Source of the DNA: Comamonas flocculans
GTDB lineage: Bacteria; Pseudomonadota; Gammaproteobacteria; Burkholderiales; Burkholderiaceae_C
Reading direction: 5' to 3'
Assembly: GCF_007954405.1 (NCBI RefSeq)
Contig: NZ_CP042344.1
Span: 3,162,001-3,226,000, forward strand
DNA length: 64,000 nucleotides
The position numbers and the translations under genes were made by a program. Positions 1,357-5,308 of this stretch are shown here, piece after piece. The notes beneath the pieces are model-generated. The model was given only the letters and a program-made list of their open reading frames with translations. It did no database searches and had not been told where the DNA came from. Position 1 is the stretch's first letter. Each line of letters begins with the position of its first letter.

Positions 1357-1385
1357 ATTATGGTACGCAAATGCGTATCTTGCAA
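1357..1385 (-). promoter_or_regulatory. Leftward early promoter
   Basis: Read on the minus strand, TTGCAA (1385-1380) and CATAAT (1362-1357) are separated by exactly 17 bases. This is a good sigma-70-type promoter pointing into the early genes at 1307 and 881. The whole operator palindrome at 1364-1377 lies within the spacer, so a bound repressor would block polymerase. Confidence 0.7.
1364..1377. promoter_or_regulatory. Candidate repressor operator
   Basis: TACGCA-AA-TGCGTA is a perfect 6-base inverted repeat with a 2-base centre. A related half-site, TTACGCATATGGATAC (1395-1410), overlaps the repressor start codon, which fits autoregulation. By analogy with phage repressors, the XRE protein encoded at 1403 is the probable ligand; that is inference. 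Confidence 0.6.
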
Positions 1386-1402: not shown

Positions 1403-1765
1403 ATGGATACTGGTGTGCGATTGCGCGAAGAACGCGAGCGGCTTGGCATGAGCCAAGAGGCGTTCGGTGCGATGGCGGGTGTGCGCAAGCAGGCGCAGCT
1501 TCTTTATGAGAAGGGCGAACGGTCACCGGATGCGCGCTATCTGTCAGCCATCGCCGCCGCTGGCACCGACGTGCTCTACATCCTCACCGGCCAGCGCAGC
1601 CAGTCGGCACCTGCGGCGGCGGCACTGCCACCGCGCGCCCGCGCGCTGCTGGACAACTACGAGTCCACGGACGAGGAAGGCAGGCGCTTCATTGAGCGCG
1701 CAGCCGATCTCGAAGCGAAATCAACGGCCACAGGCCGCAAGAAGGCCGCGCGTGGCCGCGAATGA
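1403..1765 (+). CDS. XRE-family phage repressor
   Basis: A 120-residue protein. Residues 5-60 form an XRE/Cro-type helix-turn-helix (LREERERLGMSQEAFGAMAG, then VRKQAQLLYEKGERSPDARYL), including the typical GTDVLYILTG end. The C terminus is basic and disordered (TATGRKKAARGRE). It corresponds in position to the BcepMu gp17 regulator, divergent from the early genes, and is the likely lysogeny repressor. No Shine-Dalgarno sequence is evident before the ATG, so it may be leaderless. The cargo gene at 1781 follows 15 bases later and is probably cotranscribed in the lysogen. Confidence 0.8.
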   Translation: MDTGVRLREERERLGMSQEAFGAMAGVRKQAQLLYEKGERSPDARYLSAIAAAGTDVLYILTGQRSQSAPAAAALPPRARALLDNYESTDEEGRRFIERAADLEAKSTATGRKKAARGRE

Positions 1766-1780
1766 TGGAAGGTGCGATGA

Positions 1781-2608
1781 ATGAGCCAGGTGGAGTACGT
1801 GGAGCTTTCTCCAGAGGGGTTTATGCACCTCTTGAACGGTGCGAAGCACGCCCCATTCCTGGAGCACTACGGGCGAATTCGCACTTTCGATGAGTGGACC
1901 AGCGCTGGATTCAAGATCACCCGCAGCAAGCACGGCGGCGTCACACAGCACAGCGGCCTTGCCATGTACCGGTTTCATAGGTTGTGGGCGCTCGATGCCA
2001 AACAGCAGGAGGCCATTGCTTCGGGCAAGCGCCATGTGACGCACTTTCTGCCCATGCTTGACTATGTGCGCGCTGGCGTGCCGTTTGATGACTTCGTGTC
2101 GCACCCTCAGCACTACCGCGATTTTTGCCTTGGCGTGTTGGCTCAAGAGCGAGGCGAGGCGGGTGAAGCTCTAGAACTCTTTCGTCAAGCGCTGACAGGA
2201 AACCCGAGCGAAGCCCGTTACGCCTCGAAGTTCTACGAACTGCGTGTCGCCAACGGAGACATGAGCGCGCCAGCCCAAGAGTTGGACTATTTCGCCAATT
2301 CGGTTGGCTCCATGGTGCATTCAGGCCGGGTTGACGCATGGGCCAAGCTGCTACTCAAACACAAGGACTATCCCGAGGCCGCGCGGGTGCTGCGCCGTGT
2401 TGCCGTACTACTGGAAGACAAGATTGCCGGGCGCCTGCCCAAGGGGCAGTACTCTGGCGACACCCCATCCTGGGCAGCCCACAAGCGAGATCAGTTCCGC
2501 AAAAAAATTACATCCTGGGCGAACTCAACGAGGTACGCCTCTTTGATGGCTGAAATCGAACAACAGGGCGGCTTGCCGCAACCGCAGGCAGTGCCCGGCG
2601 GGCAATGA
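1781..2608 (+). CDS. Cargo cassette protein A (unknown)
   Basis: A 275-residue soluble protein of no family I recognise, beginning MSQVEYVELSPEGFMHLLNG. Residues about 115-150 (GVLAQERGEAGEALELFRQAL and on) look like a tetratricopeptide-type helix pair. The rest is mixed alpha/beta with no evident catalytic motif. It starts 15 bases after the repressor gene and is followed by two further same-strand genes with little spacing, so the three probably form one unit expressed with the repressor. Base composition is clearly lower in GC than the phage structural genes, suggesting separate acquisition. A lysogenic-conversion or defence role is inferred from position only. Confidence 0.75.
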   Translation: MSQVEYVELSPEGFMHLLNGAKHAPFLEHYGRIRTFDEWTSAGFKITRSKHGGVTQHSGLAMYRFHRLWALDAKQQEAIASGKRHVTHFLPMLDYVRAGVPFDDFVSHPQHYRDFCLGVLAQERGEAGEALELFRQALTGNPSEARYASKFYELRVANGDMSAPAQELDYFANSVGSMVHSGRVDAWAKLLLKHKDYPEAARVLRRVAVLLEDKIAGRLPKGQYSGDTPSWAAHKRDQFRKKITSWANSTRYASLMAEIEQQGGLPQPQAVPGGQ

Positions 2609-2637
2609 CGATCACGTTAAAAAAAAGAGGAGATCAA

Positions 2638-3621
2638 ATGTCTTTATCGCTTCGCAAGCGCACAGTGCATTTCTACGAAATCCACCTACGCTCTTACACC
2701 AAGGCGGCCATCGAGAGCCCGTCATGCGCACCGTTTGCCGACCTGCTCAAATGCTTTACCGGGCTTGCTGCCGGCAGCAAGCTGCCCCAGACCATCCGCA
2801 AGTCACAGCAGTTGCACACCGTGCTGGCGGACTGGGGCTACGACAAGACCAGTAACTGCTATCAGTTGCTGATCAGCAAGGCCAACGCTGCGCTGTCCGA
2901 TGTGGCCCTACGCGATTTGGGTACGGCAAAGGTGCGCAAGGCAGGTAAAACCAAGGCTGAGGGCATCGAAATTTCAGCCCATGCGCTTGTCCGCCCCAAT
3001 GCAGACGGCAAGACGGCCGCCATGCTGCTGACCATGCAGGCGGGCGTGGCAGCCAAAGACATCGAAATACTCTTGAGGCGGCTCTCGAAAGAGGCCGCCA
3101 GAAACCGCCGCAACAGGGCGCTGTTCTACTTCGACGATCCATCCGGAGCCAAGAACTCCGAAGGCAAGCCTCTGCAATATCAGGTGAACTACGGCTTTAC
3201 CGCATTTGCTCACCAGGGTCAGACGCTTGCCGATGCCCTGCACACTGGTGAATTTGAAGGAATGGAGCTGATTGCACAGGAACGTAGCCGATTCGACACG
3301 GGCGGCAATTTGCAAGTTGTAGAGCGCAGCCTGAGCGTTCAGGCAGCCATCCCCAAAGCCGTTACTGGCGCAGGCCTGCGTGATGCGGTACGCTACTTCA
3401 AGAGTCGTCCCGATGGCGCTGAATACACCAAGCTGCGCCTTCATTACAAAACCGTGGCGGGAAAAAAGACCAGCGCCACGCTGGACATCAACAACCTGGA
3501 TGCCGCCTTCACCCTCAGGGATCACATCGAGTTCGACACCGACGTGGAATCGCAGCAGGAAGCGCTCAGCCCCGTCATTCTGGCGGGCATGAGGCCACTG
3601 CTTCAATCGGTGCCTTCGTGA
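2638..3621 (+). CDS. Cargo cassette protein B (unknown)
   Basis: A 327-residue soluble protein, unrecognised. I prefer the ATG at 2638 because AGAGGAGAT lies just before it; an ATG at 2605 overlapping the previous stop would add 11 residues. It begins MSLSLRKRTVHFYEIHLRSY. Visible blocks are a basic linker (KVRKAGKTKAEGIEISAHAL, about 112-131), an acidic/aromatic strand region (ALFYFDD) and a repetitive beta-rich C-terminal half. No membrane segment and no clear nuclease or NTPase motif. One 60-base line at 2641 has only 29 G+C, far below the flanking phage DNA. Confidence 0.75.
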   Translation: MSLSLRKRTVHFYEIHLRSYTKAAIESPSCAPFADLLKCFTGLAAGSKLPQTIRKSQQLHTVLADWGYDKTSNCYQLLISKANAALSDVALRDLGTAKVRKAGKTKAEGIEISAHALVRPNADGKTAAMLLTMQAGVAAKDIEILLRRLSKEAARNRRNRALFYFDDPSGAKNSEGKPLQYQVNYGFTAFAHQGQTLADALHTGEFEGMELIAQERSRFDTGGNLQVVERSLSVQAAIPKAVTGAGLRDAVRYFKSRPDGAEYTKLRLHYKTVAGKKTSATLDINNLDAAFTLRDHIEFDTDVESQQEALSPVILAGMRPLLQSVPS

Positions 3622-3634
3622 ACGACAGCCCAAC

Positions 3635-4189
3635 ATGCTGGATCTTGTCAGGCCTTTTTCATTCCTCACTATCCGGCATCCTTCGCGGTTGCCCTTGTGG
3701 ATCAATTGGCTATTGCCTGCCCTGGCAACGCTAGTGGTCTTGGTCGTGCTCGCCCGGCTTGGCAGTTCCGTGAATGTGTTTGGTTCGCAAGGGCTGCTTG
3801 ATCGTCTCCTCGGATTCACTCAAACCTTGGCGGGTTTCTACATCGCTGCCTTGGCGGCGGTTTCATCTTTCAACAGCCCCCACCTGGACCGGACAATGCC
3901 CAATCCGGCCCCCACCATGTACATCAAGTACAACGGGGTCATGCAGAAGGTGGCAGCGACCCGGCGGCGCTTTCTCACGTCGATGTTCGCCTACCTCACG
4001 GCGCTGAGCTTCCTCTTCACCCTTGCAGCCATTGCAACATTGGTCTTGGCCCCTGCGCTCGGAAAGAGCATGGCTTCTTCCCTGCATTGGCCGGGGCTGG
4101 GTATGTTTCTTTTCGCAATCATCCAGATGACGTGCGTCACCTTCTGGGGCCTGTTCTACCTTGGCGAGCGCATGCTCACGCCAGACTGA
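3635..4189 (+). CDS. Cargo cassette protein C, four-helix membrane protein
   Basis: A 184-residue protein with four predicted membrane segments (about residues 20-42, 62-79, 113-140 and 152-176) and a basic cytoplasmic-type loop between the second and third (YNGVMQKVAATRRRF). It starts 13 bases after gene B, so B and C are almost certainly cotranscribed. A small polytopic membrane protein paired with soluble partners is a common layout in abortive-infection and superinfection-exclusion systems, but no sequence family is recognised and the role is inference. Not a holin by position, since a separate holin gene follows. Confidence 0.75.
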   Translation: MLDLVRPFSFLTIRHPSRLPLWINWLLPALATLVVLVVLARLGSSVNVFGSQGLLDRLLGFTQTLAGFYIAALAAVSSFNSPHLDRTMPNPAPTMYIKYNGVMQKVAATRRRFLTSMFAYLTALSFLFTLAAIATLVLAPALGKSMASSLHWPGLGMFLFAIIQMTCVTFWGLFYLGERMLTPD

Positions 4190-4292: not shown

Positions 4293-4676
4293 GTGTCTCA
4301 GTTCTTCCAGAACAAGCTGCCTCGCCTGACCTCGTGGTGGGTCATCGCGCTGCTGCTCTCGCTGCTGGTGTTCTTCATCGCGCCGCAGCAACTGCCGGTC
4401 AGCCTCTACAAGCTCAACCTCATCGCCCTGGCGGCCGTCGCCGGCTACTGGATCGATCGCAGCGTCTTCCCCTACGCCCGCCCGCGCCTTGACGCGCTGC
4501 GCGCGCTCGATGACCCGGTGGACGATGGCGAGGCCGTTGAGCACGAAGGCCCCGAGGGGGCCGAGCTGCTCGTAGCCGTCTCCAACACCCCGGCGCTGTA
4601 CTTCATGCTCGGCTGCATGTGGCGACGCGCCGTCATCATGGCCGCCGCCATCGTGGCCGTGAGCCTGGGGGCGTGA
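4293..4676 (+). CDS. Putative holin
   Basis: A 127-residue protein starting at GTG 4293, with AAGGAG at 4281-4286. It has two N-terminal hydrophobic helices (about residues 15-31 and 38-54), an acidic soluble loop (DDPVDDGEAVEHEGPEGAEL) and a third helix at the C terminus (WRRAVIMAAAIVAVSLGA). It is the first gene of a tight cluster with an endolysin and spanins, and size and topology fit a holin that opens the inner membrane for the muralytic enzyme. No family assignment beyond that. Confidence 0.7.
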   Translation: MSQFFQNKLPRLTSWWVIALLLSLLVFFIAPQQLPVSLYKLNLIALAAVAGYWIDRSVFPYARPRLDALRALDDPVDDGEAVEHEGPEGAELLVAVSNTPALYFMLGCMWRRAVIMAAAIVAVSLGA

Positions 4677-4678
4677 CG

Positions 4679-5308
4679 ATGCGCGCGCGGCTGCTGGATG
4701 CCCTCGCCGTCACCGCGCTGGTGGCGCTGTGCTACCTGGCCACGCTGTGGCTGGCGGGCACCGCCCAGGCGCAGGTGCCGCCCGCGGCCAATGCCTACAA
4801 GCGCACGCTGATCCGCGCCGCGCAGGCCGAATGGGGCCTGGGCGCGCCGGTGGCGGTGTTCGCCGCCCAGGTGCACCAGGAAAGCGGCTGGCGCCCCGAT
4901 GCCGTCAGCCACGTGGGCGCGCTCGGCCTGGCGCAGTTCATGCCCGCGACCGCGCAATGGTGGTGCGACAGCATGGGCCTGCCCGCCCGGCAGTGCCAGC
5001 CACACAACCCCACCTGGGCCTTGCGCGCGCTGGTCGGCTACGACCGGTATCTGCACGATCGCACGCCCGCGCGCTACACCCCACAGGACCGCATGTGGGT
5101 GGCGCTGCGCGCCTACAACGGCGGGCTTGCCCACTGGCAGGCGGAAGCCCGTAGTACGGGGCTGCGTGAGCCCACGCGCGCGCAGGTGGATGCCGCCTGC
5201 GGCCAGGCCCGCCGCAGCCCGGTGCACTGCGCTGAAAACCTCGGCTACCCCCGGCGCATCCTGCTCGTGCTGCAGCCGCGCTATGCGTCGTGGGGGCCGG
5301 GCCTGTGA
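4679..5308 (+). CDS. Phage endolysin, SLT-type lytic transglycosylase
   Basis: A 209-residue protein with an N-terminal hydrophobic segment (about residues 9-30) that could be a cleaved signal or a signal-arrest-release anchor. The transglycosylase domain follows: the catalytic glutamate is in HQESGW (about residue 66), then GALGLAQFMP, then the RAYNGG motif typical of lysozyme-like SLT folds. It cuts peptidoglycan between MurNAc and GlcNAc. It begins two bases after the holin stop and overlaps the next gene by four bases (GTGA), fitting a lysis operon. Confidence 0.85.
   Translation: MRARLLDALAVTALVALCYLATLWLAGTAQAQVPPAANAYKRTLIRAAQAEWGLGAPVAVFAAQVHQESGWRPDAVSHVGALGLAQFMPATAQWWCDSMGLPARQCQPHNPTWALRALVGYDRYLHDRTPARYTPQDRMWVALRAYNGGLAHWQAEARSTGLREPTRAQVDAACGQARRSPVHCAENLGYPRRILLVLQPRYASWGPGL

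Follow-up and report, generated by a model that had tools for sequence, protein, structure and literature searches.

The window analysed here is a stretch of 64,000 nucleotides (G000:C1:3162001-3226000) from the 3.33-Mb single-contig genome of Comamonas flocculans, and a transposable phage makes up its first part. Between a repressor-like gene and the holin gene of this phage lie three cargo genes, which encode a TPR-like protein, a soluble protein (component A) and a small membrane protein (component B). A preliminary description, made from the sequence alone, had taken the three for an unrecognised lysogenic cassette of a shape that is often superinfection exclusion or abortive infection. 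The features of the locus are as follows.

1364..1377, no strand: perfect palindrome TACGCA-AA-TGCGTA of 14 bases, found by script just 5' of the start of the helix-turn-helix (HTH) gene
1403..1765, plus strand: Cro/CI-like HTH regulator that opens the rightward gene group (Pfam HTH_3, 4.8e-8; PHROG transcriptional regulator phrog_8, 3.9e-13)
1781..2608, plus strand: TPR-like protein of 275 amino acids, a separable cargo gene
2638..3621, plus strand: component A, 327 amino acids, RexA-like (PDC-M53A), putative DNA-binding sensor or trigger
3635..4189, plus strand: component B, 184 amino acids, four-helix membrane protein (PDC-M53B), putative effector
4293..4676, plus strand: holin, downstream border of the cargo site (Pfam Holin_2-3, 2.8e-24; PHROG holin)
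4679..5308, plus strand: SLT lytic transglycosylase, the endolysin (Pfam SLT, 1.3e-13; PHROG endolysin)

The three open reading frames were found where they had been placed before, and the gaps of 15 (1766-1780), 29 (2609-2637) and 13 (3622-3634) bases hold when the second gene is taken to start at 2638. The start at 2605 in the open reading frame list is a mechanical one; 2638 was preferred because its ATG is preceded by AGGAG and because most of the 87 homologues of A are 326-328 amino acids long, which fits this start. The low GC content noted earlier was also borne out, with G or C at 29 of the 60 bases of 2641-2700 and GC fractions of 0.591, 0.580 and 0.575 in the three genes as compared to 0.686 in window 4293-30000. 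At third codon positions (GC3) the genes have values of 0.688, 0.698 and 0.724, as against 0.905-0.927 in the holin, transglycosylase and large terminase genes. The stretch of odd composition takes in the HTH gene, whose GC3 of 0.719 is like that of the cargo and not that of the phage core (>0.90). Therefore, the switch module may itself have been exchanged together with the cargo.

The window proteins were compared with the PADLOC models by hmmscan, with E values up to 10 admitted, of which the HMMER filters drop most matches above about 0.1. A matched five PDC-M53A models (PDLC04696 at 2.9e-34) and B matched PDC-M53B (PDLC04699 at 1.5e-51). The PDC prefix in PADLOC names denotes a candidate phage defence system, and PDC-M53 is itself a candidate only. 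The earlier statement that none of the genes belongs to a known family thus fails for the second and third. Neither A nor B reached a curated cut-off in Pfam or NCBIfam. In a profile search against PDB sequences, A had no match and B had four weak, unrelated rows. The description of the third protein as a four-helix membrane protein was upheld by an AlphaFold2 model (pLDDT 94.2), in which four long helices of membrane length span residues 19-42, 54-78, 110-149 and 151-179. The model of A showed a moderate match to the RexA fold, and RexA was the top match on re-alignment. In a search of 5.8 billion proteins, B had 434 relatives (120 of them listed) and A had 87, own sequences included. Since the three genes adjoin the holin gene, one may ask whether they serve the phage in virion structure, replication or lysis. 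We regard this as extremely improbable: phages with the same layout lack the genes or have others in their place, A and B belong to PADLOC families, and their PHROG matches are non-structural and of no known function.

A relative of these families has been studied in Pseudomonas putida. The genes PP_5643/PP_5644 of prophage P1, encoding RexApp and RexBpp, protect against phages; both are required, PP_3897/PP_3898 are not, and a copy of rexApp supplied in trans did not restore defence (PMC12894663). RexApp shows non-specific DNA binding and self-interaction, and its overexpression halts growth only when RexBpp is present. Along with this arrest there is RexBpp-dependent membrane damage, with raised permeability in a subpopulation of cells but no measured depolarisation (PMC12894663). 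The function of the RexABpp family was shown in 2026 (PMC12894663).

One of the loci collected in our survey, L107 (IMGVR_UViG_637000222), is most probably the RexABpp locus. We take this record to be the KT2440 genome. Its gene order (CI-like repressor, two genes, A, B) agrees with that reported, and six of the seven RexBpp residues named in the report are found in L107 at the number given there, the exception being T103, which is D, with T at 102 (PMC12894663). The runner-up among 160 loci reached a score of 5 in this check. The calculated mass of L107 A with a His6 tag is 37.47 kDa, as compared to 37.5 in the report (PMC12894663). L107 A matches the same five PDC-M53A models as A of the window, and L107 B matches PDC-M53B at 2.8e-72. 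Directly compared, the B proteins are 38% identical almost from end to end; the A proteins are 24% identical over 119 residues and are joined through the family models. Since both pairs match the same two PADLOC families, the window pair falls in the families of a pair with a shown function, and A and B, judged by these profile matches, are members of the PDC-M53 / RexABpp family. The cassette is therefore not unrecognised as far as A/B is concerned. The two loci share, besides the PADLOC families, the gene order, the strand behind a CI-like repressor and the protein sizes (in RexABpp about 330 amino acids for A and about 188 for B, the latter with four transmembrane helices). They differ in that the window carrier is a BcepMu-like transposable phage, and in that two genes, for a HIRAN protein and a short one, stand between repressor and A in the RexABpp locus and one TPR-like gene in the window.

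Pairing and distribution of A/B were surveyed in 150 loci retrieved by means of the B alignment, comprising 71 from genome_contigs and 79 from viral_contigs (out of the best 80 of 119). These were not de-duplicated and include the phage of the window; rough k-mer thinning of 142 left 90. By record titles, Burkholderiales, pseudomonads, enterobacteria, Acinetobacter and alphaproteobacteria are represented among the 150. In 146 of them, the B start has on its own strand an A frame that ends no more than 150 bases away, and gene order, pairing and family membership are observed likewise at the window locus itself. The four unpaired loci are two at a contig end (L067, L117), one with a run of N (L066) and L036 (9902-10534), which, once contig ends and the N run are set aside, holds the sole B without a recognisable upstream A. 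In L090 (9605-10184), B is present as two overlapping open frames, and this copy may be broken. B was found in 2 of 100 related genomes, one of them that of the window, and PDC-M53B in none of 14 control genomes. By tblastn against 50,697 phage records, A had relatives in one and B in four, the latter being hypothetical proteins of Salmonella phage F1055 (OP745618.1), two Vibrio cyclitrophicus phage records (PQ189345.1, PQ189338.1) and Moraxella phage Mcat23 (KR093647.1); in OP745618.1, the A relative lies just upstream of the B relative.

An HTH gene was looked for within 3 kb of A/B in 64 loci of the thinned list. It lay upstream on the same strand in 21, upstream on the opposite strand in 4, downstream on the same strand in 2 and downstream on the opposite strand in 1; in 43 of the 64, there was no same-strand upstream HTH gene. 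The HTH model was seeded partly with HTH proteins upstream of A/B in the surveyed loci, one seed (L089) being in the wrong frame. When seven seed-giving or duplicate loci (L083, L005, L003, L094, L015, L006, L107) are left out, the counts, made by hand, are 14 of 57 upstream and 2 of 57 downstream. Fisher's p of 1.3e-5 applies to the unreduced 21/64 vs 2/64 and ignores relatedness as well as seeding. In the window, 15 bases separate the HTH gene from the first cargo gene, which lies downstream on the same strand; because of the short gaps behind this repressor-like gene, A/B probably share a transcript with the repressor in the lysogen.

Taken together, we consider it highly probable that A (2638-3621) and B (3635-4189) together make up a two-component phage-exclusion system of RexAB type, which belongs to the PDC-M53 / RexABpp family and is lysogenic cargo of a BcepMu-like transposable prophage. 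A would sense invading phage DNA or DNA-protein intermediates and would switch on B in the inner membrane. B, as a four-helix oligomer of the inner membrane, would then damage the membrane and halt growth of the infected cell, and the superinfecting phage would fail to complete its cycle. For the window locus, we infer trigger and exclusion effect from the P. putida relative and from lambda Rex, and expression in the lysogen from the short gaps. The preliminary description was right in expecting exclusion or abortive-infection cargo behind the repressor-like gene, with a soluble sensor and a small membrane protein, here of the RexABpp families; its view of the pair as unrecognised and of the trio as one unit did not stand.

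Two other modes of action were considered. Soluble-plus-membrane two-component exclusion systems are also known from prophages of actinobacteriophages, namely Sbash gp30/gp31, CarolAnn gp44/gp43 and Butters gp30/gp31, as described in two reports (PMC12894663, PMC11077077). In the Butters case, taken up in the discussion of the P. putida work (PMC12894663), the membrane protein is reported to hold a cytotoxic soluble protein at the membrane, and infection to free it. With the same architecture, B of the window could hold back an effector A; we consider this unlikely, since in the closest tested relative, which falls in the same PADLOC families, A is the trigger and B the effector. Alternatively, A might bind the phage's own DNA and bias induction, so that A/B would serve mainly the lysis-lysogeny switch of the prophage and exclusion would be secondary. 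In lambda, RexA is reported to bias the switch without any need for RexB (PMC11077077), and A stands behind a repressor-like gene; in P. putida, by contrast, deletion of rexABpp left repressor-promoter activity unchanged (PMC12894663), and we give this role a low probability. These and the other alternatives overlap and are not mutually exclusive, and the likelihoods attached to them are not meant to sum to one with that of the exclusion system.

The exclusion system proposed here shares with lambda RexA/RexB the same-strand row of repressor, soluble DNA-binding protein and small membrane protein, the first two being putative in the window. The proteins are longer, with 327 amino acids in A vs 279 in RexA and 184 in B vs 144 in RexB. 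No match of the window proteins to PADLOC RexA (PDLC02339) or RexB (PDLC02340) was listed at E up to 10; lambda RexA and RexB match these models at 9e-110 and 8.6e-61, respectively. Sequence homology to lambda RexA/RexB was also tried by hhalign with the single lambda sequence and gave nothing usable. Eleven RexA-related loci were found, 76-100% identical to lambda and thus too close for a deeper RexA profile.

The TPR-like protein is rare and only weakly recognisable. Its matches to TPR_2 and TPR_14 stayed below the Pfam gathering score, and it matched no PADLOC model (E up to 10) and no PHROG (E up to 1). The search of 5.8 billion proteins returned 17 including itself, none of the 50,697 phage records contained it by tblastn, and among 399 family genomes its model matched just one, that of the window. 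Layouts were compared in 23 loci, picked as nearest or of interest; L013, L014, L086, L091-L093, L096, L107 and L163 had the layout partially or not at all. In L009/L010, apparently one phage, the repressor-like gene is followed by TPR, another short gene and the holin, without A/B. In L176, also without A/B, the genes after TPR encode an NA37 nucleoid-associated protein (PF04245, 2.1e-72) and a protein whose putative membrane segments were judged by eye. Conversely, A/B stand behind a repressor-like gene with no TPR gene in L012/L084, L003/L089, L085, L088, L090, L015, L087 and L094; in L087 and L094, no relative of the holin or transglycosylase was found. Because each occurs there without the other, the site is a variable slot in which A/B are one module and TPR another.

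It could be argued that all three genes form one three-component system, with the TPR protein as adaptor or brake on A/B, and the tight spacing of 15, 29 and 13 bases and the common low GC3 speak for it. We hold this to be improbable in view of the phages that keep TPR at the same site without A/B (L009/L010, L176), the same-layout A/B phages without TPR, and the single family genome matched by the TPR model. The trio as one recurring unit was accordingly rejected on the same-layout phages and the rarity of the TPR gene, A/B being paired in 146 of 150 loci; we regard the TPR gene (1781-2608) as cargo in its own right and not as a required third part.

The two proteins next to TPR in L176 (8875-11092) are possibly another exclusion pair of DNA-binding plus membrane protein; they had no PADLOC match, and no second locus of the membrane protein was found in viral_contigs. 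In L015 (7735-8904), the repressor-like gene and A/B are separated by a gene that encodes a type I restriction HSDR_N domain, and the slot takes other cargo too. A PADLOC search with ten other cargo genes of the site gave a weak REase_I in L015 as the sole match. One could go further and suppose that, in BcepMu-like phages, exclusion systems built to a single plan of DNA-binding plus membrane protein turn over at the repressor-holin site (RexAB/PDC-M53 here, NA37 plus membrane protein in L176), and that the rare TPR-like gene found beside both is an accessory to either pair, with a tuning or triggering role; we offer this as a rather doubtful proposal.

The analysis gives a probable function to a cassette first seen as unrecognised, and joins the PADLOC candidate PDC-M53 to the tested RexABpp of P. 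putida. Within the literature searched, which excludes preprints and most subscription papers, no paper names PDC-M53, and only one contains RexABpp, RexApp, PP_5644 or RexAB-type, with no mention of PADLOC (PMC12894663); the joining is therefore new within that literature. The 150 loci, not de-duplicated, extend the family well beyond the five RexAB-like systems counted in that report, and they supply a large set of natural variants with which to ask what it is that Rex systems sense; some 70 years on from the discovery of the lambda system, this is described there as still unknown (PMC12894663).

The phage has an IMG/VR counterpart of 37,089 bases (IMGVR_UViG_2887854136_000001) and, from the position of B within that contig, is predicted to extend to about window 29,670. 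To the left of the window start, the minus strand encodes a transposase (phrog_310, 1.5e-72) as well as a DNA transposition protein (phrog_296, 6.8e-62); a CII-like activator and an HTH protein are likewise encoded on the minus strand. The plus-strand order is HTH gene, three cargo genes, holin, SLT transglycosylase, spanin, terminase small subunit and large terminase, the last assigned by tblastn to annotated terminases and the other lysis and terminase genes by Pfam/PHROG. Stenotrophomonas phage phiSHP3 is annotated with the same leftward and rightward layout, and its record notes a similarity of the terminase genes to BcepMu gp27/gp28; we therefore call the host phage BcepMu-like. With the transposition genes running leftward on one side of it and the lysis genes rightward on the other, the HTH gene (1403-1765) is likely the lysogeny repressor. 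A promoter scan upstream of it gave minus-strand promoter-like sites only and no rightward promoter. The palindrome at 1364-1377 is a possible repressor operator; its pattern TACGCANNTGCGTA occurs once in the window. By rough estimate, the chance of a 6-base arm somewhere within 111 bases is not very low, but the palindrome is nevertheless suggestive because a further half-site, TACGCA, lies nearby at 1396-1401.
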